Positions 3,774-58,829 of a stretch of DNA of 64,000 nucleotides are shown piece by piece (within the stretch, counting starts at the first letter, position 1; every line of letters begins with the position of its first letter). Position numbers and translations under genes: made by a program. Source of the stretch: Methanoplanus limicola DSM 2279 (lineage in GTDB: Archaea > Halobacteriota > Methanomicrobia > Methanomicrobiales > Methanomicrobiaceae); the NCBI RefSeq assembly GCF_000243255.1, contig NZ_CM001436.1:248692-312691 (forward strand), given 5' to 3'. The notes beneath the pieces were generated by a model. It had not been told where the DNA came from, did not search any database, and saw nothing but the letters and a program-made list of their open reading frames with translations.

Positions 3774-4880
3774 ATGATTAATATTGCACAGCCGGCTGTC
3801 GGCGAAGAGGAGATAGAAGCAGTTGCGGAGGTTATGCGCTCAGGTATGCTTGCCCAGGGCAGTGTAACCACTGAGTTTGAGAATAACTTTGCTGAATACT
3901 GCGGGGTTTCACATGCAGTGGGAGTTAATTCCGGAACAGCCGCTCTTCACATGGGCCTTTTAGCCCTTGGGATTGGAGCCGGGGATGAAGTTATCGTCCC
4001 GTCTTTTACGTTTATCGCAACCGCAACTGCGGTCAGCATGTGCGGGGCAACACCTGTCATTGTCGATGTAACGGAGGATACATACACTATAAATCCGGAA
4101 GAAATTACCGCAAATATTACTGACAGAACAAAGGCAGTAATCGGCGTTCATCTCTTCGGTCAGCCTTTTGACGTTGATTCTGTGCTTAAAATCTGTGATG
4201 AGCATAACCTGTACCTGATAGAGGATGCCGCGCAGGCTCACGGTGCTGTGTACAAAGGCAAAAGAGCAGGTGGTTTTGGGAAAATCGGATGTTTCTCATT
4301 CTACCCGACCAAAAATATGACCACCGGAGAAGGGGGAATTGTAACCACCAATGATCAGGATATTGATCAGAAGATAAGAAGGCTTATCAATCACGGGCAG
4401 AGTGAGAAGTACTTACATACTGAGCTTGGGTACAACATGCGGCTGTCAAATATCTCTGCTGCAATAGGTAATGTCCAGCTCAGAAAAATTGACGGTATGA
4501 ACCGGAAGAGAGCTGCTAATGCTGAAGTGTACAATAAAAACATCTCAGCAGAAGGCATCAAAACTCCGTTTTGCATGAGTGATTCAGAACATGTCTGGCA
4601 CCAGTATGTCATTGAGGTGAAGGATAATTTCCCGATGAGCCGTGATGAGTTTATGGTTTATCTCCGGGAGAAGGGGATAGGTTCAGCAGTGCATTACCCG
4701 ATTCCGGTTCACATGCAGCCGATGTACAGCGATTCAGGATCAATAAACAGGAAAATATCAGAATCCGGATGTCCGGTCTCTGAGAGGCTTGCTTCTGAGG
4801 TGCTGAGCCTGCCTGTTCACCCCGGAGTTTCTCCTGAAGAATGTGAATATATATGCGATATAATTAATGAGGTAAATTAA
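3774..4880 (+). CDS. DegT/DnrJ/EryC1/StrS aminotransferase (WbpE/WlbC-like)
   Basis: 368 residues, full length for PLP sugar aminotransferases. Visible motifs: GVNSGTAALHMGLLALGIG (PLP phosphate binding), EDAAQAHGA, and FSFYPTKNMTTGEGG with the Schiff-base Lys in PTKN. Predicted role is to add the 3-amino group to UDP-3-keto-GlcNAcA using glutamate. It precedes the oxidoreductase that would make the 3-keto substrate by a single base, so the two are translationally coupled. Confidence 0.92.
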   Translation: MINIAQPAVGEEEIEAVAEVMRSGMLAQGSVTTEFENNFAEYCGVSHAVGVNSGTAALHMGLLALGIGAGDEVIVPSFTFIATATAVSMCGATPVIVDVTEDTYTINPEEITANITDRTKAVIGVHLFGQPFDVDSVLKICDEHNLYLIEDAAQAHGAVYKGKRAGGFGKIGCFSFYPTKNMTTGEGGIVTTNDQDIDQKIRRLINHGQSEKYLHTELGYNMRLSNISAAIGNVQLRKIDGMNRKRAANAEVYNKNISAEGIKTPFCMSDSEHVWHQYVIEVKDNFPMSRDEFMVYLREKGIGSAVHYPIPVHMQPMYSDSGSINRKISESGCPVSERLASEVLSLPVHPGVSPEECEYICDIINEVN

Positions 4881-4881
4881 C

Positions 4882-5799
4882 ATGGATGTTGGGGTTATTG
4901 GAGTCGGAGTTATGGGCAGAAACCATGCCCGCGTATATTCCGAGCTTAAAGGCGTTGATTCTGTAACAGTCTTTGATTTAAATACGGCTGCGGCAGAGAA
5001 TGTTGCTGAGGGCATAGGAGCTGAATGCGCATCTTCGATGGGTGAGATGTTACAATCGGTTGACTGCGTCAGCATGGCTGTGCCGACACCATACCATTTT
5101 GCAACTGCCAAAGAGGTTTTGAATGCCGGAGTAAATATGCTCATTGAAAAGCCGGTCTGTCTTACAGCTGCGGAGGGTGATGAACTGATTAAAATTATCC
5201 CTGATGACCTGGTTGTAGGTGTCGGGCATATTGAGAGGTTTAATCCTATCATCAATGAGATAAAAAGAATTGTCAGGGACCCGCTATATATCGAGATCAA
5301 GAGGCACAATCCGGCCTCTGCAAGGGTTACAGGCAGTTCTGTTCTTGAGGACCTTATGATCCATGACATTGATCTGATTGAGAATGTCTTTACCGGAGAT
5401 ATGGGATGTGAAATAGTCGGGTGCTCCGGCAGTTTTGATATATTCTCCGGTCTGTTTGAATCCAACGGCACGACAATATCACTCTCTGCCAGCCGGAAGT
5501 CCTCAAAGAAGATCCGCTCGATATACATTGAGGAGGAGGATTACACAATCGAAGGGGATTTCATGTCCAGGGATGTGTACATACACAGGAAGCCTGAGCA
5601 CTACAGCATAGATGATGACCGTTATGTCCAGGAGAATATCGTTGAGAAGGTCATGGTCAACAAGCTTGAGCCGCTTAAGGTTGAACTTTCAGAATTTGTT
5701 GACTGTGTCAGAACCGGAAAGCCTTTTCCCGTAACTCCAAAGCAGGGGAATAACAACCTCAGAATATGCGAAGAACTAAAAGAGAGATGCAGAATATAA
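4882..5799 (+). CDS. Gfo/Idh/MocA oxidoreductase (WbpB/WlbA-like)
   Basis: 305 residues. N-terminal Rossmann motif GVIGVGVMGRNHARVYSEL, then AVPTPYHF and the family EKP motif (LIEKPVCL). The C-terminal half carries LMIHDIDLI, the usual substrate-side helix. In the Wbp pathway this NAD enzyme oxidises C3 of UDP-GlcNAcA, giving the substrate for the aminotransferase encoded just upstream. Position between aminotransferase and dehydrogenase matches wbp/wlb clusters. Confidence 0.9.
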   Translation: MDVGVIGVGVMGRNHARVYSELKGVDSVTVFDLNTAAAENVAEGIGAECASSMGEMLQSVDCVSMAVPTPYHFATAKEVLNAGVNMLIEKPVCLTAAEGDELIKIIPDDLVVGVGHIERFNPIINEIKRIVRDPLYIEIKRHNPASARVTGSSVLEDLMIHDIDLIENVFTGDMGCEIVGCSGSFDIFSGLFESNGTTISLSASRKSSKKIRSIYIEEEDYTIEGDFMSRDVYIHRKPEHYSIDDDRYVQENIVEKVMVNKLEPLKVELSEFVDCVRTGKPFPVTPKQGNNNLRICEELKERCRI

Positions 5800-5996
5800 C
5801 TGTATTCAGCTGAATTCCGGAAATATCACAGATAACCTGAATTAATGAGATACTGAAATTAATCAGATTACTGATAAAATATATACAATTATCAGATAGC
5901 TGGAATTAATCAGATAAACAATGAAATATATGCAATAATCTGTGTATTATTACAGTTCAGACACGATGAGCAGGCATACAATAAAAGTGAGAAAAT

Positions 5997-7622
5997 ATGA
6001 GTGACAAATTAAGCGAAATCATCAGCAAAAGAGGCCCGGTTAAGAAGATTGGTGTAATAGGCATGGGATATGTAGGTATCCCTGCCGCAGTCCTCTTTGC
6101 AGACGTTCCCCATTTTGAGAAGGTATATGGTTTTCAGCGGAATTCCAAAACATCCGGATATAAGATAGATATGCTCAACTCGGGTGAGAGTCCTCTAAAA
6201 GGCGAGGAACCCGGCCTTGAGGAGTTAATCAGTAAAGTTACCGGAAATGATTCTGTGAAAGCAAAGGGAGAAGGTAAAACAGGGGATAAAGATAGTGCAG
6301 GTGAAGGAATCAGAAAGTTTGAATGCACATCTGACTTCTCAAAGCTTTCTGAATGCGATGCTATAACCCTTGCAATCCAGACTCCTTTTGAGAGCAGGGA
6401 AGATCTGATTCCAAACTTTGAACCGTTAATTGAGGGCATAAGAAATGCCGGCAGGTACTTAACACCCGGAACCCTTGTGGTCCTTGAGTCAACAATCACA
6501 CCAGGAACGACTGAAGGTATGGCAAGGAAGATTCTTGAGGAAGAATCCGGACTTGTTGCCGGGGAGGACTTCTGCCTTGCACATGCACCTGAGAGGGTAA
6601 TGGTTGGGCGCCTCCTTAGAAATATCCGTGAGCATGACAGAATTGTCGGCGGGATTAAAAGCTACGGCCCGGACGGAATCCTTCTGGACGGCATTGACTC
6701 ACCAAGCACAAAGCGTGCGATGGAACTCTACGGCCCTGTGCTTACCAAAGGAAAATTAATTCCAATGTCTGCAACAGCCGCAGAAACCACAAAGACTGCC
6801 GAGAACACCTTCAGGGACTTACAGATCGCAGCTGCCAACCAGCTGGCACTTTACTGTGAGGCAATGGGCATAAACTTCTATGACGTTAGAAGGGGCGTTG
6901 ACTCCCTGAAGGGAGAAGGCATAACAAGGGCAATGCTCTGGCCCGGTGCCGGTGTTGGCGGGCATTGTCTTACAAAGGACACCTATCACCTGGAGCGTGG
7001 AGTAAAGATTGTCAACACGGATCTCAATGCCGGACAACTCGAACCTCTGGACTTCCCTGAAGGAAAAGATTCTCTCTACGTCCTTGCAAGGCAGATAAAC
7101 GACTTCATGCCCCACCACATGCTTACGTTAACGAAGGCTGCTCTTGCGCGTGCCGGAAAAGAATTCAGTAAATCCAGTAAAGAATTCAATGACACTGACA
7201 GAGCAAATGAAAAAGGCAATCGGAAAATCAAAGTAGCTATACTCGGCTGGGCCTTCCTTGCCAATTCTGATGATGCACGAGATACTCCGGCAGAGATCTA
7301 CTACAGACTCTGCAAAGATGCCGGTGCAGACGTAAGCATCCATGACCCTCATGTCCTCAGTTATCCCGGACTTGATGATGGTGACAACATCTCACAGGAT
7401 CTTGATGAAGTCATTGCCGGTGCTGATGTCATTGCTGTTCTTGCCGGGCATAAGGAGTATTTCAGCCTGAAGCCGGAGGAGGTTATTAAAACAGCAGGAG
7501 TGAAGTGCCCTGTAATCGTTGACGGCCGGAATGTTATTGACCCGGATACGTGGATCAGCGGTGGCTTCATCTACAAAGGCATTGGGCGTGGTGACAAGAA
7601 CAACCACGAGCTGATTCATTGA
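5997..7622 (+). CDS. Nucleotide-sugar dehydrogenase (UDP-GlcNAc 6-dehydrogenase, WbpA-like)
   Basis: 541 residues, roughly 100 longer than the family norm. GVIGMGYVGIPAAVLF (Rossmann), LESTITPGTTE, the AHAPERV segment, and the catalytic-Cys motif GVGGHCLTKD are visible. The extra length comes from hydrophilic low-complexity insertions, one near residues 80-105 (rich in G, K, D, E) and one near 390-405 (rich in S, N, K), both at expected surface loops. It would make UDP-GlcNAcA for the WbpB/E/D steps. A ~200-bp AT-rich gap with imperfect 'gaattaatcagat' repeats and a TATA-like AAATATATA separates it from the preceding gene, so it may have its own promoter. Confidence 0.88.
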   Translation: MSDKLSEIISKRGPVKKIGVIGMGYVGIPAAVLFADVPHFEKVYGFQRNSKTSGYKIDMLNSGESPLKGEEPGLEELISKVTGNDSVKAKGEGKTGDKDSAGEGIRKFECTSDFSKLSECDAITLAIQTPFESREDLIPNFEPLIEGIRNAGRYLTPGTLVVLESTITPGTTEGMARKILEEESGLVAGEDFCLAHAPERVMVGRLLRNIREHDRIVGGIKSYGPDGILLDGIDSPSTKRAMELYGPVLTKGKLIPMSATAAETTKTAENTFRDLQIAAANQLALYCEAMGINFYDVRRGVDSLKGEGITRAMLWPGAGVGGHCLTKDTYHLERGVKIVNTDLNAGQLEPLDFPEGKDSLYVLARQINDFMPHHMLTLTKAALARAGKEFSKSSKEFNDTDRANEKGNRKIKVAILGWAFLANSDDARDTPAEIYYRLCKDAGADVSIHDPHVLSYPGLDDGDNISQDLDEVIAGADVIAVLAGHKEYFSLKPEEVIKTAGVKCPVIVDGRNVIDPDTWISGGFIYKGIGRGDKNNHELIH

Positions 7623-42942: not shown

Positions 42943-43878
42943 ATGACAAAACGTAACTTTCCGCCCAAAATAGCCACACCGGATGGCTCATTCATCATGT
43001 CTCCAAAGAACGACTTTGCCTTTCGGCTGTTATTTGGAGATGAGAAGAACAAAGAGATCACAATAGCCTTTTTAAGGGCCATGCTTAAAATTCCGGTTAA
43101 GGACATTAAGATAAAAGATCCCTTTCTTCTTAAGCAGATGGCCGGAGATAAAACGGGGATACTGGACATCCGGATTGTTCTGGACTCAGGAGTGCAGGTG
43201 GATGTGGAAATTCAGCTGAGTGATCATCCGGCAATCAGGGAGAGGGTGCTGTTTTATAACTCAAGGCTGTATACATCGCAGCTCTCATCCGGAGACGGGT
43301 ATCATTTACTTAAAAAGACCATCTCTCTGGTAATTCTCGATTATAATCTCTTTAAGGTTGAACCGATGCATACTACATTCAGGCATTATGACCAGGATAA
43401 TGAGATAGAACTTAAAGATGTCCAGGAAGTGCATATTGTTGAACTACCAAAACTTAAATATCATCAGAAACAACATAGAAACAATCCGGAAATACCGTGG
43501 CTGATGTTTCTTAATGCAGCAACAAAGGAGGAATTAATAATGGCCGCAGATGCTGAACCCAAAGTCGCAAAGGCGTATGACCGCTTACGTGATATGAGTG
43601 AAGATGAAGAGAGCAGAAGGGCATATGAAGAGAGAATAACCGAGATAATCGAGGTTGATCTCAGGATGCAGGCAGCTGAGGAGAGAGGAGAAATCAGAGG
43701 AGAAATCAGAGGAGAAATAAAAGGAAGAGAAGAAGGAAGGGAAGAAGGGAGAGAAGAAGGGATTATTAATACTGCAAAGAACCTGATACTGCTTGGAATG
43801 AACGATGATATTATAATAAAAGCAACTAAGTTATCTCCGGAAAAGATTTCTCAACTTAGATCTGAAGTTGGGCCATAA
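42943..43878 (+). CDS. rpn: Rpn-family PD-(D/E)XK nuclease, copy 1
   Basis: 311 residues from ATG 42943 (an upstream in-frame ATG at 42862 adds 27 unrelated residues). N-terminal nuclease: MSPKNDFAFRLLFGDEKN, IPVKDIKIKDPFL, GDKTGILDIRIVLDSG with VDVEIQL supplying the D...ExQ active site. From residue 200 the C-terminal module begins: MAADAEPKVAKAYDRLRD, ERITEIIEVDLRMQ, then RGEI and GREE repeats and a terminal LRSEVGP. The module can be translated alone from an internal ribosome site. Family proteins are linked to recombination and, in E. coli, to phage defence. Confidence 0.92.
   Translation: MTKRNFPPKIATPDGSFIMSPKNDFAFRLLFGDEKNKEITIAFLRAMLKIPVKDIKIKDPFLLKQMAGDKTGILDIRIVLDSGVQVDVEIQLSDHPAIRERVLFYNSRLYTSQLSSGDGYHLLKKTISLVILDYNLFKVEPMHTTFRHYDQDNEIELKDVQEVHIVELPKLKYHQKQHRNNPEIPWLMFLNAATKEELIMAADAEPKVAKAYDRLRDMSEDEESRRAYEERITEIIEVDLRMQAAEERGEIRGEIRGEIKGREEGREEGREEGIINTAKNLILLGMNDDIIIKATKLSPEKISQLRSEVGP
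43524..43542 (+). promoter_or_regulatory. Internal ribosome site and ATG in rpn copy 1
   Basis: AAAGGAGG at 43524-43531, eight bases, ATG at 43540 in the rpn frame (codon 200). Would give a 112-residue C-terminal protein. The same site is in every full-length copy and at the start of each stand-alone C-terminal ORF. Confidence 0.7.
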
Positions 43879-44053: not shown

Positions 44054-44122
44054 ATGACAAAACGTAACTTTCCGCCCAAAATAGCCACACCGGACGGCTC
44101 ATTCATCATGTCTCCAACCTGA
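44054..44122 (+). pseudogene. rpn 5' fragment
   Basis: First 21 codons of an rpn gene (MTKRNFPPKIATPDGSF then IMSP), cut and followed by a TGA where unrelated DNA begins. Confidence 0.88.
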
Positions 44123-44342: not shown

Positions 44343-44565
44343 TATAAATGAGATTTTGGCTGACATCAGTGTAATTGATCATTCCGATGAATATTATAGT
44401 ATATATGGAGATATATCTGCAAAACCTGGAAAAAAAGGAACTCCTATAGGTAAGTTTGATCAGCTTGTGGCAGCGATTGTCATCTACCATGACGCAAAGC
44501 TTGTTACCAACAATACAAAAGACTTTGAAAGAGTCCTCTCTCCTTCAGAAATAATCAATCACTGA
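44343..44565 (+). pseudogene. vapC: vapC 3' fragment
   Basis: Last ~73 codons of the VapC at 38221 (from INEILADISVIDHSDEYY to LSPSEIINH), with few base differences; the downstream ~80 bases match too. First half missing, so no first catalytic residues. Confidence 0.9.
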
Positions 44566-44882: not shown

Positions 44883-45797
44883 ATGACAAAACAAAACTTT
44901 CCACCCAAAATTATCACACCGGATGGCTCTTTCATCATGTCTCCTAAAAACGACTTTGCCTTTCGGCTGCTGTTTGGGGATGAGAAGAACAAGGAGATCA
45001 CAATAGCCTTTTTAAGGGCCATGCTTAAAATTCCGGTTAAGGACATTAAGATAAAAGATCCCTTTCTTCTTAAGCAGATGGCCGGAGATAAAACGGGGAT
45101 ACTGGACATCCGGATTGTTCTGGACTCAGGAGTGCAGGTGGATGTGGAAATTCAGCTGAGTGATCATCCGGCAATCAGGGAGAGGGTGCTGTTTTATAAC
45201 TCAAGGCTGTATACATCGCAGCTCTCATCCGGATACGGGTATCATTTACTTAAAAAGACCATCTCTCTGGTAATTCTCGATTATAATCTCTTTAAGGTTG
45301 AACCGATGCATACTACATTCAGGCATTATGACCAGGATAATGAGATAGAACTTACAGATGTCCAGGAAGTGCATATTGTTGAACTACCAAAACTTAAATA
45401 TCATCAGAAACAACATAGAAACAATCCGGAAATACCGTGGCTGATGTTTCTTAATGCAGCAACAAAGGAGGAATTAATAATGGCCGCAGATGCTGAACCC
45501 AAAGTCGCAAAGGCGTATGACCGCTTACGTGATATGAGTGAAGATGAAGAGAGCAGAAGGGCATATGAAGAGAGAATAACCGAGATAATTGAGGTTGATC
45601 TCAGGATGCAGGCTGCTGAGGAGAGAGGAGAGCTTAGAGGAGAAATAAAAGGGAGAGAAGAAGGAATTATAGAAGAACGCATCAATCAGGCAAAAAGCCT
45701 GATCTCACTTGGAATGGATGACGATTTCATAATGACGGTGACTAAACTTTCTGAAGATGAAATATTACACCTTAGATCTGAAGTTGAATCCGAATAA
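44883..45797 (+). CDS. rpn: Rpn-family PD-(D/E)XK nuclease, copy 2
   Basis: 304 residues, very close to copy 1 over the nuclease part and the first half of the C-terminal module. It differs in the end: one GREEG unit, then IIEERINQAKSLISLGMDDD and a different last helix (SEDEILHLRSEVESE). D...ExQ residues kept. Internal ribosome site at the same codon. Confidence 0.92.
   Translation: MTKQNFPPKIITPDGSFIMSPKNDFAFRLLFGDEKNKEITIAFLRAMLKIPVKDIKIKDPFLLKQMAGDKTGILDIRIVLDSGVQVDVEIQLSDHPAIRERVLFYNSRLYTSQLSSGYGYHLLKKTISLVILDYNLFKVEPMHTTFRHYDQDNEIELTDVQEVHIVELPKLKYHQKQHRNNPEIPWLMFLNAATKEELIMAADAEPKVAKAYDRLRDMSEDEESRRAYEERITEIIEVDLRMQAAEERGELRGEIKGREEGIIEERINQAKSLISLGMDDDFIMTVTKLSEDEILHLRSEVESE
45464..45482 (+). 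promoter_or_regulatory. Internal ribosome site and ATG in rpn copy 2
   Basis: AAAGGAGG (45464-45471) and ATG at 45480, codon 200. Would give a 105-residue product. Confidence 0.7.
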
Positions 45798-45904: not shown

Positions 45905-46003
45905 GATGATAAACAACATAAGAACAATCCGGAAATACCTATGAATGATATTTCTTAATCAGAGCAACAAAGGAGGAATTAATGATGGCTGCAAAAGCTG
46001 TGT
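45905..46003 (+). pseudogene. rpn C-module remnant
   Basis: Decayed DNA from the rpn segment around codon 185-205 (aacaatccggaaatacc, then gcaacaaaggaggaatt and ATGATGGCTGCAAAAGC). The ribosome site is kept but the frame soon runs into hairpin repeat E8. Confidence 0.75.
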
Positions 46004-46440: not shown

Positions 46441-46454
46441 TTTTATGCTTATCC

Positions 46455-46684
46455 ATATAAAGAAAATAAATGACATTCTGAGTGTAATCCCTGTTTTTGA
46501 ATTCAATAATGATTATTATCCGGCATATGGGGAACTATCAGCAAGGCTTGAAAAGAAAGGAACTCCGATTGGTAAATTTGACAAACTGATTGCAGCCATT
46601 GCCCTTTATCACGGTGCAAAGGTTTTGACAAATAATACTAAAGATTTTTCAAGAGTGCCCACACTTGAGATTATTAATCATTAA
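46455..46684 (+). pseudogene. vapC: vapC 3' fragment
   Basis: Encodes KKINDILSVIPVFEF, NDYYPAYGELSARLEKKG, GKFDKLIAAIALYHGAK, LTNNTKDFSRV: the second half of a VapC close to the 34171 copy. The first half is missing. Confidence 0.88.
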
Positions 46685-47801: not shown

Positions 47802-47939
47802 GAGGCTGTTGCATGGTAACTTTTCTGTAGACTATAAGATAATTTCGCACGACAATTGTTTTTTTGTTGCCAATACTTTACCCAAATGTACCAATCATTT
47901 ATTCATTTGTCTATTAATTTTTATTCACGCAACAGCCTC
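47802..47939. mobile_element. MITE copy 1
   Basis: 138 bp, perfect 11-bp inverted ends GAGGCTGTTGC/GCAACAGCCTC, flanked by AATT on both sides (47798-47801, 47940-47943). The uninterrupted site is seen at 42520-42535 (ctgtccaattgctacag). No coding capacity. Left ~45 and right ~30 bp match the other copies. Confidence 0.92.
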
Positions 47940-49496: not shown

Positions 49497-49634
49497 GAGG
49501 CTGTTGCACGGTTATTTTTCTATAGACAATAAGATAATTTTACAGGACAATTGTCTGGTTTTTGGAGAATATTGTCCCACAGCCACTAATTATTTATACA
49601 TTTATCCATCAAATTTTATTCACGCAACAGCCTC
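49497..49634. mobile_element. MITE copy 2
   Basis: 138 bp, ends GAGGCTGTTGC/GCAACAGCCTC, target duplication AGAA (49493-49496, 49635-49638). The corresponding site without insertion is at ~33775 (cttatgggaaattatt). Confidence 0.92.
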
Positions 49635-51558: not shown

Positions 51559-52437
51559 ATGACAAAACGTAACTTCCCACCTAAAATAGCCACACCGGAT
51601 GGCTCCTTCATCATGTCTCCAAAAAACGACTTTGCCTTTCGGCTGTTATTTGGAGATGAGAAGAACAAAGAGATCACAATAGCCTTTCTAAGGGCCATGC
51701 TTCAGATCCCAATTGAAGACATCAAAATTAAAGATCCCTTTCTTCTTAAGCAGAAGGCCGGAGATAAAACCGGAATACTGGACATCAGGATAGTCCTGGA
51801 TTCAGGGGTTCAGGTGGATGTGGAAATTCAGTTGAGGGATCATCCGGCAATAAGGAGGAGAATTCTGTATTATAACTCAAAGCTGTATACATCACAGATC
51901 TCAGCAGGAGATGGGTATCACCTGCTTAATAAGACTATATCTCTGGTTATTCTCGATTATAACCTCCTTGATATTGAATATATGCATACTATTTTCAGGC
52001 CTTCTGACCTGAGGTACGGGATAGAACTGGCAGATGCCCAGGAAGTGCATATTGTTGAACTACCAAAACTTAAATATTATCGACAACAACATAAGGACGA
52101 TCCGGAAATCCCGTGGCTAATGTTTTTAAACGCAGCAACAAAGGAGGAATTAATAATGGCCGCAGAAGCTGAACCCAAAGTCGCGAAGGCATATGACCGC
52201 TTACGTGATATGAGTGAAGATGAAGAGAGCAGAAGGGCATATGAAGAGAGAATAACCGAGATAATCGAGGTTGATCTCAGGATGCAGGCAGCTGAGGAGA
52301 GAGGAGAGGAAAATAAAGGTAATCGTGATGCTAAAAACATGATCTTACTTGGGATGGATGATGAGATCATAATGAAAGTTACAGAACTTCCGGCAGAAAA
52401 AATAGCTCAGCTAAGATCTGAAGTTGAATCAAAATAA
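51559..52437 (+). CDS. rpn: Rpn-family PD-(D/E)XK nuclease, copy 3
   Basis: 292 residues, the shortest full copy because it lacks the RGEI/GREEG repeats (ERGEENKGNRDAKNMILLGM instead). Nuclease motifs as in copy 1 (NDFAFRLLFGDEKN; GILDIRIVLDSG; VDVEIQL). The nuclease part is of a second subtype (IPIEDIKIK, RRRILYYNSKLYTSQISAG) shared with copy 4. Internal ribosome site at codon 200. Confidence 0.92.
   Translation: MTKRNFPPKIATPDGSFIMSPKNDFAFRLLFGDEKNKEITIAFLRAMLQIPIEDIKIKDPFLLKQKAGDKTGILDIRIVLDSGVQVDVEIQLRDHPAIRRRILYYNSKLYTSQISAGDGYHLLNKTISLVILDYNLLDIEYMHTIFRPSDLRYGIELADAQEVHIVELPKLKYYRQQHKDDPEIPWLMFLNAATKEELIMAAEAEPKVAKAYDRLRDMSEDEESRRAYEERITEIIEVDLRMQAAEERGEENKGNRDAKNMILLGMDDEIIMKVTELPAEKIAQLRSEVESK
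52140..52158 (+). promoter_or_regulatory. Internal ribosome site and ATG in rpn copy 3
   Basis: AAAGGAGG (52140-52147) and ATG at 52156, codon 200; product would be 93 residues. Confidence 0.7.
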
Positions 52438-52613
52438 AAAGCGGCGATTAACCTTTAACTTTCTGAAAAATATCTTATCCAAATACTTTTCGTTATCCCC
52501 GTATTACCCACACCATCCATGACAGGCATATCATATGGATGGTTCAACATAAGAACAATCCGGAAATCCCGTGGCTAATGTTTTTAAACGCAGCAACAAA
52601 GGAGGAATTAATA

Positions 52614-52916
52614 ATGGCCGCAGAAGCTGAACCCAAAGTCGCGAAGGCATATGACCGCTTACGTGATATGAGTGAAGATGAAGAGAGCAGAAGGGCATAT
52701 GAAGAGAGAATAACCGAGATAATCGAGGTTGATCTCAGGATGCAGGCAGCTGAGGAGAGAGGAGAAATCAGAGGAGAAATAAAAGGAAGAGAAGAAGGGA
52801 TTATTAATACTGCAAAGAACCTGATACTGCTTGGAATGAACGATGATATTATAATAAAAGCAACTAAGTTATCTCCGGAAAAGATTTCTCAACTTAGATC
52901 TGAAGTTGGGCCATAA
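52614..52916 (+). CDS. Stand-alone Rpn C-terminal protein A
   Basis: 100 residues from ATG 52614 with AAAGGAGG eight bases before it. Rpn-like DNA starts just upstream at ~52545 (NNPEIPWLMFLNAA), so the nuclease half is missing. The end (one GREEG unit, INTAKNLILLGMNDD ... LRSEVGP) is that of copy 1, not of copy 3 next to it. Probably translated as a short Rpn-S-like protein; role as inhibitor of Rpn is inference. Confidence 0.7.
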   Translation: MAAEAEPKVAKAYDRLRDMSEDEESRRAYEERITEIIEVDLRMQAAEERGEIRGEIKGREEGIINTAKNLILLGMNDDIIIKATKLSPEKISQLRSEVGP

Positions 52917-52949
52917 AGCCATCTGCAAAATCCCTTTCGGGACTTATAT

Positions 52950-53085
52950 TTTTCTAACCGGCAATATTACCTGCTTAAACCTGTGAAATACACAAAGCAA
53001 TTGATGACAAGAGAAGGGAAGGACCCTTCCCTTCTACGCACTCCATTTGAAATATGGTCACAGAATAGCAGGCCAGGCACCCATT
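52950..53085 (+). repeat. Multi-hairpin dispersed repeat, copy E14
   Basis: Near-identical to E7, again running directly into an rpn start codon; stem A AGAAGGGAAGG/CCTTCCCTTCT is intact. The duplicated block reaches back into the preceding C-module (from about 52800 here and 43760 at E7). Confidence 0.85.
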
Positions 53086-53091
53086 TTTATC

Positions 53092-54018
53092 ATGACAAAA
53101 CGTAACTTCCCACCTAAAATAGCCACACCGGATGGCTCCTTCATCATGTCTCCAAAAAACGACTTTGCCTTTAGGCTGTTATTTGGAGATGAGAAGAACA
53201 AAGAGATCACAATAGCCTTTCTAAGGGCCATGCTTCAGATCCCAATTGAAGACATCAAAATTAAAGATCCCTTTCTTCTTAAGCAGAAGGCCGGAGATAA
53301 AACCGGAATACTGGACATCAGGATAGTCCTGGATTCAGGGGTTCAGGTGGATGTGGAAATTCAGTTGAGGGATCATCCGGCAATAAGGAGGAGAATTCTG
53401 TATTATAATTCAAAGCTGTATACATCACAGATCTCAGCAGGAGACGGGTATCACCTGCTTAATAAGACTATATCTCTGGTTATTCTCGATTATAACCTCC
53501 TTGATATTGAATATATGCATACTATTTTCAGGCCTTCTGACCTGAGGTACGGGATAGAACTGGCAGATGCCCAGGAAGTGCACATTGTCGAACTACCAAA
53601 ACTTAAATATCATCAGGAACATAATAAGGACGATCCGGAAATCCCGTGGCTAATGTTTTTAAACGCAGCAACAAAGGAGGAATTAATAATGGCCGCAGAA
53701 GCTGAACCCAAAGTCGCGAAGGCATATGACCGCTTACGTGATATGAGTGAAGATGAAGAGAGCAGAAGGGCATATGAAGAGAGAATAACCGAGATAATCG
53801 AGGTTGATCTCAGGATGCAGGCAGCTGAGGAGAGAGGAGAAATCAGAGGAGAAATAAAAGGAAGGGAAGAAGGGAGAGAAGAAGGGAGAGAAGAAGGAAT
53901 TATCCATGACGCAAAAAAAATGATCTCACTTGGGATGGATGATGACATTATAATGAAAATCACAGAACTTCCGGCAGAAAAAATAGCCCGGCTAAGGTCC
54001 GAAGAAGAGTCTGAGTGA
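53092..54018 (+). CDS. rpn: Rpn-family PD-(D/E)XK nuclease, copy 4
   Basis: 308 residues from ATG 53092 (frame is open to 53047 through hairpin repeat DNA). Nuclease part nearly the same as copy 3; the C-module has three GREEG units and ends IHDAKKMISLGMDDD ... LRSEEESE. Catalytic D...ExQ present. Followed by two C-module ORFs in tandem. Confidence 0.92.
   Translation: MTKRNFPPKIATPDGSFIMSPKNDFAFRLLFGDEKNKEITIAFLRAMLQIPIEDIKIKDPFLLKQKAGDKTGILDIRIVLDSGVQVDVEIQLRDHPAIRRRILYYNSKLYTSQISAGDGYHLLNKTISLVILDYNLLDIEYMHTIFRPSDLRYGIELADAQEVHIVELPKLKYHQEHNKDDPEIPWLMFLNAATKEELIMAAEAEPKVAKAYDRLRDMSEDEESRRAYEERITEIIEVDLRMQAAEERGEIRGEIKGREEGREEGREEGIIHDAKKMISLGMDDDIIMKITELPAEKIARLRSEEESE
53673..53691 (+). 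promoter_or_regulatory. Internal ribosome site and ATG in rpn copy 4
   Basis: AAAGGAGG (53673-53680) and ATG at 53689, codon 200; product would be 109 residues. Confidence 0.7.
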
Positions 54019-54180
54019 GAAACCGGAATTAATCCAGAATCCTCAGGAAATATATTTTTTTAAAGATTCCATTGTCCTTTGCGTACCCTATGACCTTTTA
54101 GATTTCCAGATATTCATATAGGGCTAATAAAGACAATCCCGAAGTACCTTTGAATGATGTTTCTTAATGCAGCAACAAAG

Positions 54181-54317
54181 GAGGCTGTTGCACGGTTATT
54201 TTTTGTAGATAATAAGATAATTTTATTTGGCAAACGGATATTTTTTTGACAATTTTTAACCAATAAATACAAATAATTTATCATCAGTCCATCAAATTTT
54301 ATTCACGCAACAGCCTC
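54181..54317. mobile_element. MITE copy 3, inserted in an rpn C-module ribosome site
   Basis: 137 bp, ends GAGGCTGTTGC/GCAACAGCCTC, target duplication AAAG (54177-54180, 54318-54321). The target is the AAAG of AAAGGAGG; the right-hand duplicate restores the complete AAAGGAGG in front of ATG 54334. Uninterrupted site at 54810. Confidence 0.93.
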
Positions 54318-54333
54318 AAAGGAGGAATTAATA

Positions 54334-54651
54334 ATGGCCGCAGAAGCTGAACCCAAAGTCGCGAAGGCATATGACCGCTTACGTGATATGAGTGAAGATG
54401 AAGAGAGCAGAAGGGCATATGAAGAGAGAATAACCGAGATAATCGAGGTTGATCTCAGGATGCAGGCAGCTGAGGAGAGAGGAGAAATCAGAGGAGAAAT
54501 AAAAGGAAGGGAAGAAGGGAGAGAAGAAGGAATAATCCATAACGCAAGAAAAATGATTTCACTTGGAGTGGATGATGATTTCATAATGAAGATCACAGAA
54601 CTTCCGGCAGAAAAAATAGCCCGGCTAAGGTCTGAAGAAAAGTCTGAGTGA
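54334..54651 (+). CDS. Stand-alone Rpn C-terminal protein B
   Basis: 105 residues from ATG 54334, ribosome site AAAGGAGG at 54318-54325 rebuilt by the MITE target duplication. Two GREEG units, then IHNARKMISLGVDDDF and LRSEEKSE. Only ~35 bp of rpn sequence remain upstream of the MITE. The MITE may now supply the upstream region. Confidence 0.7.
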   Translation: MAAEAEPKVAKAYDRLRDMSEDEESRRAYEERITEIIEVDLRMQAAEERGEIRGEIKGREEGREEGIIHNARKMISLGVDDDFIMKITELPAEKIARLRSEEKSE

Positions 54652-54825
54652 GAACCCGGAATTAATCCAGAATCCTCAGGAAATATATTTTTTTAAAGAT
54701 TCCATTGTCCTTTGCGTATCCTATGACCTTTTAGATTTCCAGATATTCATATAGGGCTAATAAAGACAATCCCGAAGTACCTTTGAATGATGTTTCTTAA
54801 TGCAGCAACAAAGGAGGAATTAATA

Positions 54826-55116
54826 ATGGCCGCAGAAGGAAAACCCAAAGTCGCGAAGGCATATGACCGCTTACGTGATATGAGTGAAGATGAAGAGAGC
54901 AGAAGGGCATATGAAGAGAGAATAACCGAGATAATCGAGGTTGATCTCAGGATGCAGGCAGCTGAGGAGAGAGGAGAAATAAAAGGGAGAGAAGAAGGAA
55001 TTATCCATGACGCAAAAAAAATGATTTCACTTGGGATGGATGATGACATTATAATGAAGATCACAGAACTTCCGGCAGAAAAAATAGCCAGGCTAAGGTC
55101 TGAAGTTGAGCTATAA
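54826..55116 (+). CDS. Stand-alone Rpn C-terminal protein C
   Basis: 96 residues from ATG 54826 with AAAGGAGG at 54810-54817; an in-frame ATG at 54787 (MFLNAATKEEL) is less likely as start. One GREEG unit, ending LRSEVEL. The ~150 bp before it repeats the DNA after copy 4 (54019-54170), so B and C arose by tandem duplication. Confidence 0.7.
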   Translation: MAAEGKPKVAKAYDRLRDMSEDEESRRAYEERITEIIEVDLRMQAAEERGEIKGREEGIIHDAKKMISLGMDDDIIMKITELPAEKIARLRSEVEL

Positions 55117-55485: not shown

Positions 55486-55740
55486 GGAATATAAACGACA
55501 AAATGTTTGAGATTTATCGGATACAAACGACAAAATGTTTAAGATTTATCGGATACAAACGACAAATGTTTGAGATTTATCGAATATAAACGACAAATTG
55601 TTTAAGATTTATCGGATACAAACGACAAAATGTTTAAGATTTATCGGATACAAACGACAAATGTTTGAGATTTATCGAATATAAACGACAAATTGTTTAA
55701 GATTTATCAAATATAAACTACACAATCATTAATTATATCG
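55486..55740 (+). repeat. Array of eight 31-33 bp tandem repeats
   Basis: Units start near 55486, 55519, 55551, 55582, 55614, 55646, 55677 and 55709, each like ggatacaaacgacaaaatgt plus ttaagatttatc. Units 2-4 and 5-7 form a repeated triplet of about 95 bp. There are no spacers, so this is not CRISPR. Iteron- or protein-binding-like array; flanking DNA to 55951 has no gene. Confidence 0.92.
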
Positions 55741-55951: not shown

Positions 55952-56500
55952 TCACCATTCAGAAGGCCCCTTCTCCTCTAAAATATCTGCAAGAAGTTTT
56001 ACCTGTTTCTCATCACTAATCTTTTTCTCCCACTCTTTCTTTATCCAGAAAAACTTGTCATGACAGAAATCAGGAATCTCCTCAAGAACATCTGAACTGT
56101 ATTCCTTTTCAAATTTATACAGTCCATAAAGAATTCCGGCACAGTAATCACGGGACTGATCGGGCATTCCCCTCTCAATGTATTTATTCATCTCCATAAC
56201 ATATTCGTCAGTTATCTCCTCAAGCATCTCATATGCCCTCTCACCGGGGTAAATATAACCGTCACGTGTTCTCCCGGAACTGTCCCAGACCTCTTCAACA
56301 TTCAGGCAGTCAAGTTCATCTGCAAGAGACTCTGCAATATCATCAGTATCAACATCACATAACAGACCTTCTGCAATCTCTTCAGCATAAGCTCTTATAT
56401 CAGGATATTCACGGATTATATTATAAAGTACAGTGCTCCTCCCGGACAGGTCAAGGGAATCAAGGAGAGGTGTTGAGGCAGTCTTCTTTTTTCCGGCCAT
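55952..56500 (-). CDS. Hypothetical protein, paralogue of 57365-57913
   Basis: 182 residues, helical, acidic with a basic start MAGKKKTASTPLLD. Regions: IIREYPDIRAYAEEIAEGLL, VWDSSGRTRDGYIYPGE, YIERGMPDQSRDYCAGILY. No membrane segment. Very close to the gene at 57365, the two flanking a HicBA pair, so the block probably duplicated. Family not recognised; the alpha-helical repeats resemble tails of some SWIM-type proteins, which is weak evidence. Confidence 0.75.
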   Translation of the reverse strand: MAGKKKTASTPLLDSLDLSGRSTVLYNIIREYPDIRAYAEEIAEGLLCDVDTDDIAESLADELDCLNVEEVWDSSGRTRDGYIYPGERAYEMLEEITDEYVMEMNKYIERGMPDQSRDYCAGILYGLYKFEKEYSSDVLEEIPDFCHDKFFWIKKEWEKKISDEKQVKLLADILEEKGPSEW

Positions 56501-56749: not shown

Positions 56750-56977
56750 TTAGAGAAGATCGTTGAATTCTTCAACAGTTAAACCGGCCTGTTTTAGAAT
56801 ATGTGAAAGAGTTGAACGTTTCAATGGTTTGTGTGCAGGAACAGTTATTTTCAGAGTTTTATTATGCAGATGTTTTTGCAGACGCATGTGACTGCCTCTT
56901 TGTCTGACAACAACAAAACCATATCTCTGAAGAGCAACAATTAGTCTGTCATAATTAACTGAAGGTACTTTATCCAT
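56750..56977 (-). CDS. hicA: HicA-type toxin
   Basis: 75 residues. VNYDRLIVALQRYGFVVVRQ and RGSHMRLQKH (catalytic His in GSHM), then ITVPAHKPLKRSTLSHILK and AGLTVEEFNDLL. Typical HicA dsRBD-like RNase. Encoded after hicB on the same strand with an 82-base gap, so both may share a promoter upstream of hicB. Confidence 0.92.
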   Translation of the reverse strand: MDKVPSVNYDRLIVALQRYGFVVVRQRGSHMRLQKHLHNKTLKITVPAHKPLKRSTLSHILKQAGLTVEEFNDLL

Positions 56978-57059
56978 TGGAAATACCGGAAAAATTAAAA
57001 ATCAAGGGGCAATGCACCTACAATTATCTAATGCCTGAATGGAATGATAATTCCCTGAT

Positions 57060-57263
57060 TTACACAGCGATCTCTACCTGTTCTGCATTATCATTCAATA
57101 ACATATCATCAGGAACAGGTTCGAGATATAATGCAATGGCCTCCCTGATATTTTTAAGTGCCTCTTCTCTTGTATCTCCCTCACTTATGCAGCCTGGCAG
57201 AGATGGCACATAAACAGTATATCCTCCTTCATCACCTGGCTCAAGAATGACACGAAGATTCAT
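57060..57263 (-). CDS. hicB: HicB-type antitoxin
   Basis: 67 residues. LRVILEPGDEGGYTVYVPSL, PGCISEGDTREEALKNIREA, then IALYLEPV: the UPF0150/HicB N-terminal domain. No DNA-binding C-terminal domain is present, so this is the short HicB form. Pairs with the HicA downstream. Confidence 0.92.
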   Translation of the reverse strand: MNLRVILEPGDEGGYTVYVPSLPGCISEGDTREEALKNIREAIALYLEPVPDDMLLNDNAEQVEIAV

Positions 57264-57364
57264 GATAGTAATTATAATTCCGGGAACTTATAATTTATCA
57301 TAAAATCAAATATCTGCCGTAATCCCTGCCGGTCTAATATTTCATGTGAAAGATTATGTTCATC

Positions 57365-57913
57365 TCACCATTCTGCCATTCCCTTCTCCTCTAAAATATC
57401 TGCCAGAAGTTTTACCTGTTTATCATCGCCAATCTTTTTCTCCCACTCTTTTCTAATCCATGAAAACCTGTCATGACAATAATCAGGAGTCTCCTCAAGA
57501 ACATCTGAATGGTAATCTTTTTCAAATTTATACAGCCCATAAAGAATTCCGGCACAGTAATCACGGGACTGATCGGGCATTCCCCTCTCAATGTATTTAT
57601 TCATCTCCATAACATATTCATCAGTTATCTCCTCAAGCATCTCATATGCCCTCTCACCAGGATCAACATAACCATCACGTGTTCTCCCGGAACTGTCCCA
57701 GACCTCTTCAACCTTCAGGTAGTCAAGTTCATCAGCAAGAGACTCTGCAATATCATCAATATCAACATCACATAACAGACCTTCTGCAATCTCTTCAGCA
57801 TAAGCTCTGATATCAGGATATTCACGGATTATGTTATAAAGAACAGTGCTCCTCCCTGACAGGTCAAGGGAATCAAGCAGGGGTGTTGAGGCAGTCTTCT
57901 TTTTTCCGGCCAT
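57365..57913 (-). CDS. Hypothetical protein, paralogue of 55952-56500
   Basis: 182 residues from ATG 57913; the frame extends upstream to 57991 but the paralogue starts at the equivalent ATG with the same MAGKKKTASTPLLD. Differences are scattered (YVDPGE, DYHSDVLEETPDYCHD, end GMAEW). Function unknown. Confidence 0.75.
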   Translation of the reverse strand: MAGKKKTASTPLLDSLDLSGRSTVLYNIIREYPDIRAYAEEIAEGLLCDVDIDDIAESLADELDYLKVEEVWDSSGRTRDGYVDPGERAYEMLEEITDEYVMEMNKYIERGMPDQSRDYCAGILYGLYKFEKDYHSDVLEETPDYCHDRFSWIRKEWEKKIGDDKQVKLLADILEEKGMAEW

Positions 57914-58134
57914 AATTATTAATTTTGACTCTGCCAGAAAATAACTATTTCCAATTATCGCAATAACTTCATTATCGATGTTAAATCTCATTCCAGGAAA
58001 TTCCCTCAGCTTTTAGCAGTAATATTACAAAAACCTGTGAGAGATTATAACTTTCATGGCTGTGATTACAGGTCCTGTCTGCTATATATCAACACAGAGA
58101 TAATGGTCATGATGCAGGTATTTTTCCGGATGAC

Positions 58135-58479
58135 TCAGATAAGAATACCCTCATCAAGGATTGTACAGACAAAAGAGTTCTGTCGCTTTAGCATCTCACC
58201 AAACTCTTCCTTTGTATAGCATATGGCCTCAACCGGAAGTTCGGTCATCTCCATAATCTCACCGGGCCTTTTATGAAAACGCTCCTTAAAGTCTGCAACT
58301 ACAAGGAGATCGACATCACTTGCCTCATTATAGTCCCCCCGTGCAACAGAGCCGTAAAGTATTATTCTCTCAACATTCCACCTTAAGCGAATTTTTCCTG
58401 CAAGTCTCTTTATTTCCAGTTTCAGGCTTTCAAAACTTCCTTCACTTTCTTCAATATTAATTCTGCACATCTGATACAT
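58135..58479 (-). CDS. MNT-type nucleotidyltransferase (HEPN partner)
   Basis: 114 residues. ILYGSVARGDYNEASDVDLL is the minimal nucleotidyltransferase motif (GS..RG...SDxDL) with its metal-binding Asp pair. It overlaps the HEPN gene by 58 bases, though a later start (e.g. ATG 58470) is possible. In HEPN/MNT modules the MNT protein inactivates the HEPN RNase, in studied cases by AMPylation. Confidence 0.9.
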   Translation of the reverse strand: MYQMCRINIEESEGSFESLKLEIKRLAGKIRLRWNVERIILYGSVARGDYNEASDVDLLVVADFKERFHKRPGEIMEMTELPVEAICYTKEEFGEMLKRQNSFVCTILDEGILI

Positions 58480-58829
58480 TCTTCTGCATCCTCCTCCTCA
58501 AAATATTCTGACGGTGTCAAATCACTGACTATACTATCGGGATATCTGGTACTCATATAATAACCATCAAGAACTTTGCCCTCTTTTCTGAGATCTAAAA
58601 AAGATTCATCCAGTTTTCCGGTCTTTTTAATGAGATCAAATACTGAATAGGTCAGAATTTTCCTGTACCCTCTCCCGTAAAGAACAGATTTTAAGGCCTT
58701 CTCAGCACTTTGCTGTGCCTGAAAACATGCCCAGTTGAAATCAGATGTGCTGACACTGTTCCCTGCACTTTTAAGATCTCCTTCAGCCTGTTTTAGCCAC
58801 TTAAAAGCTTCATGGAGATTATTCTCCAT
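58422..58829 (-). CDS. HEPN-domain protein
   Basis: 135 residues: AFKWLKQAEGDLKSAGNSV and FNWACFQAQQSAEKALKSVL are the helical HEPN core. The usual R-x4-6-H RNase motif is not obvious (GYYMSTRYPDSI in its place), so it is nearer to the non-toxic 'DUF86-unlike' HEPN group with RYPD. It forms a unit with the MNT gene. Confidence 0.88.
   Translation of the reverse strand: MENNLHEAFKWLKQAEGDLKSAGNSVSTSDFNWACFQAQQSAEKALKSVLYGRGYRKILTYSVFDLIKKTGKLDESFLDLRKEGKVLDGYYMSTRYPDSIVSDLTPSEYFEEEDAEECIRCAELILKKVKEVLKA

Follow-up and report, generated by a model that had tools for sequence, protein, structure and literature searches.

Full rpn genes and C-module cassettes in the window

The window, i.e., the whole stretch of 64,000 nucleotides of Methanoplanus limicola DSM 2279 that was analysed, carries four full rpn genes on the forward strand. 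The first, c1 (42943-43878), encodes a predicted RpnL of the PD-(D/E)XK nuclease type and contains an internal Shine-Dalgarno (SD) sequence at 43524 and an internal ATG at 43540, from which a putative RpnS module runs to 43878. The three others are c2 (44883-45797, internal ATG at 45480), c3 (51559-52437, internal ATG at 52156) and c4 (53092-54018, internal ATG at 53689). All four match PF12784 (177-178 bits, for a cut-off of 27.4) and TIGR01784 (153-176 bits, for a cut-off of 52.1). In an alignment of eight full rpn genes, the motif I-L-D-I ... E-x-Q is invariant, which fits the PD-(D/E)XK superfamily. The weak structure model of the full-length protein (mean pLDDT 67) gave no reliable fold match, the top one being the EcoT38I restriction endonuclease (E 0.027, probability 0.44); a phmmer search of c4 against the PDB returned no meaningful match, and PADLOC has no model for the full rpn protein or for the cassette protein.

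Three shorter genes lie behind c3 and c4 on the same strand. Cassette A (52598-52916; SD at 52598, ATG at 52614) encodes a module of 100 amino acids, cassette B (54318-54651; SD at 54318, ATG at 54334) one of 105 and cassette C (54810-55116; SD at 54810, ATG at 54826) one of 96, the last two with a tail of the c4 type. Their TIGR01784 match is confined to the last third of the profile. The initial annotation, whose start at 52614 coincides with the internal ATG of cassette A, had proposed that C-module cassettes follow full rpn genes, and this is what we find: A, B and C are open from ATG to stop, each has its own SD and ATG, and they are intact C-modules, not gene debris. A further C-module, 3' of c2 (about 45915-46000, forward strand), is decayed; its SD region can be recognised (87% identical to the head query across 84 nt) and its frame is lost. 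The identity between the flanks of c1 and A also reveals what is left of the beginning of a further rpn gene 3' of c1 (44062-44117, approximate limits, forward strand).

Truncated fragments of PIN-domain (VapC-like) genes lie behind both c1 and c2 (44356-44565 and 46445-46684, forward strand), which suggests the duplication of a larger unit made up of rpn and PIN. Directly after the rpn cluster there is a tandem array (55487-55726) of a 32-bp unit, ATACAAACGACAAAATGTTTAAGATTTATCGG, in 7.5 copies with 88% matches. Further toxin-antitoxin genes follow on the reverse strand (56750-58829), namely HicA (56750-56977), a HicB-like gene (57060-57263), an MNT nucleotidyltransferase (58135-58479) and a HEPN gene (58422-58829). 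A near-identical gene pair (MAGKKKTASTPLLDSLDLSGRSTVLY...; 55952-56500 and 57365-57991, reverse strand) stands on either side of HicAB, and the one member that was searched had no Pfam match.

The source genome is a single contig of 3.2 Mb and contains a second rpn cluster (cluster II) on the other strand, at about 2.332-2.348 Mb, approximately 2 Mb from the cluster in the window. Cluster II comprises several full genes and at least two intact cassettes, with assembly gaps within two modules; since these two C-modules contain runs of N (contig piece L017, about 4800-6000), their unit numbers cannot be read. Four-residue repeat arrays may be misassembled in short-read genomes. One rpn gene of cluster II (L017, 19143-19904, reverse strand) ends in EESISP shortly past the internal start region; without repeats and end, it corresponds to a nuclease without the antitoxin part.

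A MITE-like element of 137 bp (54181-54317, forward strand), with the terminal repeats GAGGCTGTTG...CAACAGCCTC and a flanking direct repeat AAAG, sits exactly 5' of the SD of B and leaves this SD and the ATG whole; an 86%-identical piece of the upstream part of the module remains on the other side of it (about 54127-54184). Other copies of 137-138 bp with the same ends lie at 47802-47939, with the direct repeat AATT, and at 49497-49634. The names of the two families read "putative transposase", and one could thus imagine that the rpn genes are transposases and the cassettes their non-autonomous derivatives. We regard this as hardly credible. The modules have no terminal inverted repeats, target duplications or common ends, their flanks being variable, and the only element with inverted-repeat ends found at a module is the MITE at 54181-54317. 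Moreover, the copies are clustered in two tandem arrays, and Zhong et al. (2023) found no sign that rpn genes transpose autonomously (PMC10327210).

A predicted internal translation start in every full gene and cassette

Zhong et al. (2023) demonstrated that an internal start in E. coli rpn genes produces a short protein, RpnS, that RpnS binds to the full-length nuclease, which is toxic, and blocks it, and that a helix of RpnS carries four-residue repeats in variable number (PMC10327210). The archaeal genes contain, in their 3' part, an in-frame internal ribosome-binding site and start codon of this kind. The sequence AAAGGAGGAATTAATAATGGCC, which comprises the SD and the ATG, is common to every full gene and cassette, and AAAGGAGGAATTAATAATGGC, whose SD and ATG lie in the reading frame of the nuclease, is found in all 14 near-identical copies of the genome. 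The corresponding 27-mer occurs in seven exact copies in the window, plus a decayed one with three mismatches, and not once in 100 shuffles. Among seven genes checked for [KRE]EE triplets, 4 of 16 are written AGGAGG, none of them outside the internal start sites, and four is also the number of rpn genes in this set. The internal methionine is invariant among full-length relatives that are 43-45% identical to c4 (internal starts in the archaeal homologues were located by HMM). Translation would thus be expected to begin at the archaeal internal SD. As the same SD and ATG are present in every full gene and cassette, each cassette reads as a stand-alone RpnS: the cassettes are, from their sequence, complete translation units that look like stand-alone RpnS antitoxins.

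The predicted structure of cassette B agrees with this reading. Its model has a mean pLDDT of 63, reaching about 80 over the last 40 residues, and its best fold match in the PDB is E. coli RpnA-S (7TH0; probability 0.99, target TM 0.76), with an rmsd of 0.9 A over 38 columns and 37% identity. The predicted C-terminal fold is thus like that of RpnA-S, which ranks first despite a Foldseek E-value of 0.45; in a sequence-profile search, 7TH0 ranked second with an E-value of 0.2, and the weight lies in the ranks and in the agreement of both searches rather than in either value. The variable four-residue repeats are also present, within the helix formed by residues 59-76 of the model. Taken together, the full genes are probably toxin genes of the RpnL/RpnS type, and A, B and C duplicated stand-alone copies of RpnS.

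Four-residue units differ between neighbouring modules

Within each module, about 50 codons form the head, and a block of four-residue units separates it from the end. The numbers of GREE/REEG units are those given in the initial annotation, i.e., three in c1 and c4; two in B; one in c2, A and C; and none in c3. The variable block also holds GEIR/GEIK units. Measured from "AAEERG" to the tail, this insert has 28 residues in c1 against 16 in A, 24 in c4 against 20 in B and 12 in C, 20 in c2 and 8 in c3; no cassette in the window has the insert length of its tail partner. In every complete module measured, including those of cluster II and of a congener, the insert length is a multiple of four.

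The congener (G024, locus L026) presents this variation in its simplest form. One full gene has a single IEKG unit, and behind it lie three cassettes, of 6, 5 and 4 units, and a decayed fourth one. The full gene and the three cassettes share an identical tail protein, the cassettes differ from each other almost only in unit number, and GAAGGAGGAGTTAAAGATGGC is found in each copy. The decayed cassettes, after c2 and in G024, indicate that some cassettes are not maintained.

These decayed copies are also what one would expect if the cassettes were passive by-products, i.e., 3' fragments left by tandem duplication and deletion, similar to each other through recent duplication, with a unit number that changes by neutral slippage. 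The 12-bp repeats are slippage-prone, the cassettes of G024 are near-identical and hence young, and the E. coli ypaA cassette is annotated as a pseudogene in K-12. However, intact frames with SD and ATG are found in A, B and C, in at least two cassettes of cluster II, in three of G024 and in others; B kept its SD and ATG across the MITE insertion; the E. coli YpaA protein is made (PMC10327210); and single-copy remnants of the nuclease domain are rarer here than lone C-modules. Over 31 codons, the tails of C and c4 differ by four synonymous and no nonsynonymous changes, and those of B and c4 by six synonymous and three nonsynonymous ones, which would fit purifying selection on the cassette proteins, the numbers being small. 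We therefore consider passive origin rather unlikely, and hold to the reading of the cassettes as RpnS genes.

An RpnS gene just downstream of a full gene could simply supply more antitoxin for the adjacent toxin, and the tail type of B and C is that of c4. The unit numbers speak against this. In E. coli, one extra unit in RpnC-S or in RpnC-L, and not in both, abolishes blocking, a specificity demonstrated for a single E. coli Rpn, RpnC (PMC10327210). In the archaea, the inserts are mismatched in the window, in cluster II (28 vs 32) and in G024 (28, 24 and 20 vs 8), and none of six distinct E. coli haplotypes has matching unit numbers. Thus, no comparable pair of cassette and neighbour matched, which argues against a simple extra dose if the RpnC rule holds, and makes this explanation improbable. 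The rate of mismatch is the one that independent drift gives; it argues against selection for matching, not for selection for mismatching. As the enrichment of mismatched unit numbers is not significant under independence, we claim no selection for mismatch.

Alternatively, mismatched unit numbers and foreign tail types would fit a library of immunities, in which the cassettes neutralise transferred Rpn toxins of other specificities or act as decoys for viral inhibitors of Rpn. Mobility and a link to defence have been described for rpn genes (PMC10327210), and the cluster is surrounded by toxin-antitoxin and HEPN/MNT genes. On the contrary, the module alignment found no relative among 89 pattern matches in the viral collection, so that no virus there has a recognisable relative of the module, and direct evidence of incoming matching toxins is lacking. 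Such a library appears quite improbable. The same alignment retrieved two loci only in the genome collection.

Heads are homogenised and tails change places

The modules of M. limicola are of mixed ancestry. Between the SD and codon 50, no difference (0/166 nt) separates c3, A, c4 and B, and c1 departs from their sequence at 3 nt. The tails of A and c1 are also identical (0/116 nt), with 1/150 nt differences in the downstream flank, and their common block extends beyond the stop by about 238 nt, so that it includes the beginning of the rpn gene that follows. A is thus a mosaic of a c3/c4 head with the tail of c1 and 238 nt of c1 flank. The initial annotation had recognised that A, located after copy 3, has the tail of copy 1; an exchange of this tail alone is rejected, the exchanged block including the flank. 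The duplicated flanks that it described for B and C, in tandem after c4, are found for B, whose downstream flank differs from that of c4 by 2/150 nt (head 0/166, tail 11/116), while the downstream flank of C is different. For comparison, c1 and c3 differ by 83/590 nt in their nuclease domains and by 36/113 nt in their tails.

The head, i.e., the first 50 or so codons of the module, is nearly identical in 14 copies. Between the two clusters, its synonymous divergence (dS) is 0.035-0.19, against 0.80-1.03 for the nuclease domain, with tails that have diverged too (Fisher p of 2e-7 to 6e-5 for head vs nuclease domain in the three pairs tested). In sliding windows, divergence drops from about -60 to +150 around the internal ATG, a stretch close to the segment that the cassettes have in common with the full genes. 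Heads that are near-identical beside diverged nuclease domains and tails indicate that recombination has homogenised the heads and reassorted the tails. A constraint at the nucleotide level, on codons or RNA, was considered and rejected: when the two congeneric species are compared, the head has diverged as much as the rest, with a dS from above 1.2 to saturation in synonymous changes. The identity of the heads is therefore explained by gene conversion or repeated replacement and not by such a constraint. Part of the identity of heads and flanks could nevertheless come from recent tandem duplication instead of later conversion. Homogenisation is not universal, as the heads of the three full genes of the congener itself are not homogenised (dS 0.2-1.1). 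In the locus of the window, tail movement is read from one M. limicola genome.

Tail exchange is also visible in related archaea. A Methanospirillum-like genome (G197, locus L059) and locus L095 each have a full gene (G197_1 and L095_1); the two agree in nuclease domain and head, with a few per cent of differences up to about +120. Past the repeats they are about 30-65% different, and L095_1 there matches another gene, G197_3. From this alignment, the tail of a full gene has been swapped at the repeats. The gene order in L095 is full-S-S-S-full-S, where S is a separate module, and in G197 a full gene is followed by two modules that share one frame. L095 (1-4900) lies on a contig of a MAG labelled Cloacimonadota while its rpn genes are a few per cent from those of G197; this reflects either a recent transfer or a misbinned contig.

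Strain comparison in E. coli

The initial annotation had proposed to look for tail swaps between full genes and cassettes by comparing strains. We ran this comparison on E. coli rpnE and its downstream cassette ypaA, in 17 sampled strains. In the ten strains that have both genes, rpnE carries one tail (alpha) and the cassette another (beta), and the unit numbers of the two genes differ in each case. In the seven strains where the cassette is absent, rpnE ends in the beta tail, i.e., the tail of the cassette (7/7). Across 5,426 genomes, 5,363 have the beta tail and 3,099 the alpha tail, nearly always as a single copy.

On the nuclease-domain tree of the 17 strains, the tail state needs about four changes, two of which are forced by well-supported branches. 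In one strain pair (loci L084 and L092), the nuclease domains and the 929 nt upstream of the module are identical, and the difference amounts to one module: L084 is without the 243-bp alpha module, and its own module resembles the L092 cassette (6 differences over 386 nt, flank included), whereas its alignment with the other L092 copy contains 429 gap positions. In such changes, the alpha module was either lost or inserted. The tail distribution and the L084/L092 pair were computed here; Zhong et al. mention such a fusion (PMC10327210).

The picture of a store of alternative tails that recombine with the full gene is therefore partly retained. Tails do change places, as the mosaic A, the homogenised heads, the L095/G197 pair and E. 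coli attest, and the strain data thus go against the refuting outcome named in the initial annotation, tails that never move. The cassettes may serve as a store of tails, be it by function or as a by-product of tandem duplication. The idea of a merely silent store is not supported as stated: each cassette, with an SD and an ATG of its own, forms a complete translation unit and looks like a stand-alone RpnS antitoxin, a reading that the initial annotation had not considered. The strain-level data on tail movement come from E. coli and related archaea rather than from strains of M. limicola.

A possible specificity switch

As the sequences show, the heads have been homogenised by recombination, and the unit number and the end move together, the breakpoints falling at the repeats or close to them. 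By analogy with E. coli, each module would give a small protein that forms dimers, binds to the corresponding region of RpnL and blocks it, and blocking would occur only where the unit number, and perhaps the end, match. If a full gene and a cassette crossed over in their identical heads, the DNA in between would be deleted, and the full gene would receive, in frame, the unit number and end of the cassette. Each cassette would hence be both an antitoxin made in its own right and a C-terminus that the toxin may take up next.

Beyond the reading of the cassettes as RpnS copies, we tentatively propose, as one possibility, that the array is a built-in specificity switch, in which different C-termini for an antiviral nuclease stand in line and each of them is produced beforehand as its own antitoxin; recombination in the shared head would then change specificity, i.e., unit number plus end, in one step. 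If so, the cell already holds the antitoxin for the new form of its toxin.

Rpn proteins are widespread antiphage toxin-antitoxins whose specificity varies by four-residue steps, and the reason for and origin of this variation are stated as open (PMC10327210). The archaeal loci lay the variation in unit number side by side in one genome (1 beside 6, 5 and 4), the drop in synonymous divergence shows module heads recombining genome-wide, and the archaeal loci and E. coli strains together show that ends move in one step. This leads to a testable question: does cassette X protect solely against the toxin with end X, and do cultures switch?

Comparison with known systems

Intragenic RpnS, specificity by repeat number, single downstream copies and fusions are already known (PMC10327210). 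In the small part of the RpnS literature that we covered, we found no description of archaeal arrays with up to three intact cassettes that differ almost only in unit number, nor of a genome-wide homogenisation of the module head; a prior description of either is possible.

The closest system is E. coli rpnE with ypaA, and likewise rpnC with its downstream copy: as in the archaeon, a full gene with an internal SD and ATG is followed by a separate gene for the C-module (PMC10327210). These separate rpnS genes have been lost by deletion or fusion, the full gene and the cassette being fused in some strains (PMC10327210). In rpnE/ypaA, as in the archaeon, the two modules have the same head and differ in unit number (0 units vs 1 in K-12) and end. 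However, the archaeal genes belong to the PF12784/TIGR01784 subfamily, unlike RpnE and YpaA; they are accompanied by up to three intact tandem cassettes, against one for rpnE or rpnC; and their heads are homogenised across clusters 2 Mb apart. The internal start also precedes the repeats by about 50 residues in the archaeal module and by 8-20 in E. coli, a feature taken from examples and not from a definition, and because of this distance the archaeal antitoxin may behave differently from that of E. coli. In Clostridioides difficile RpnL/RpnS, there is likewise an internal start in the rpn gene and a variable number of units in RpnS (PMC10327210), but, unlike at the archaeal locus, no cassette array is described in that paper.

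Two further systems have features in common with the array. The orphan modules of contact-dependent inhibition (CDI), cdiA-CT/cdiI, are spare C-terminal modules located downstream of the full gene, and recombination in a segment common to both can link them to it (PMC6336857). The spare module of CDI encodes a toxin tip together with its immunity protein, and other cells are the target to which the full protein is delivered, whereas the archaeal spare is the antitoxin-like part; the likeness is one of working and not of descent. In the type I restriction enzymes EcoR124I and EcoR124II, the number of four-residue TAEL repeats also sets specificity (cited in PMC10327210), in an unrelated protein where the repeats set the spacing of DNA recognition.
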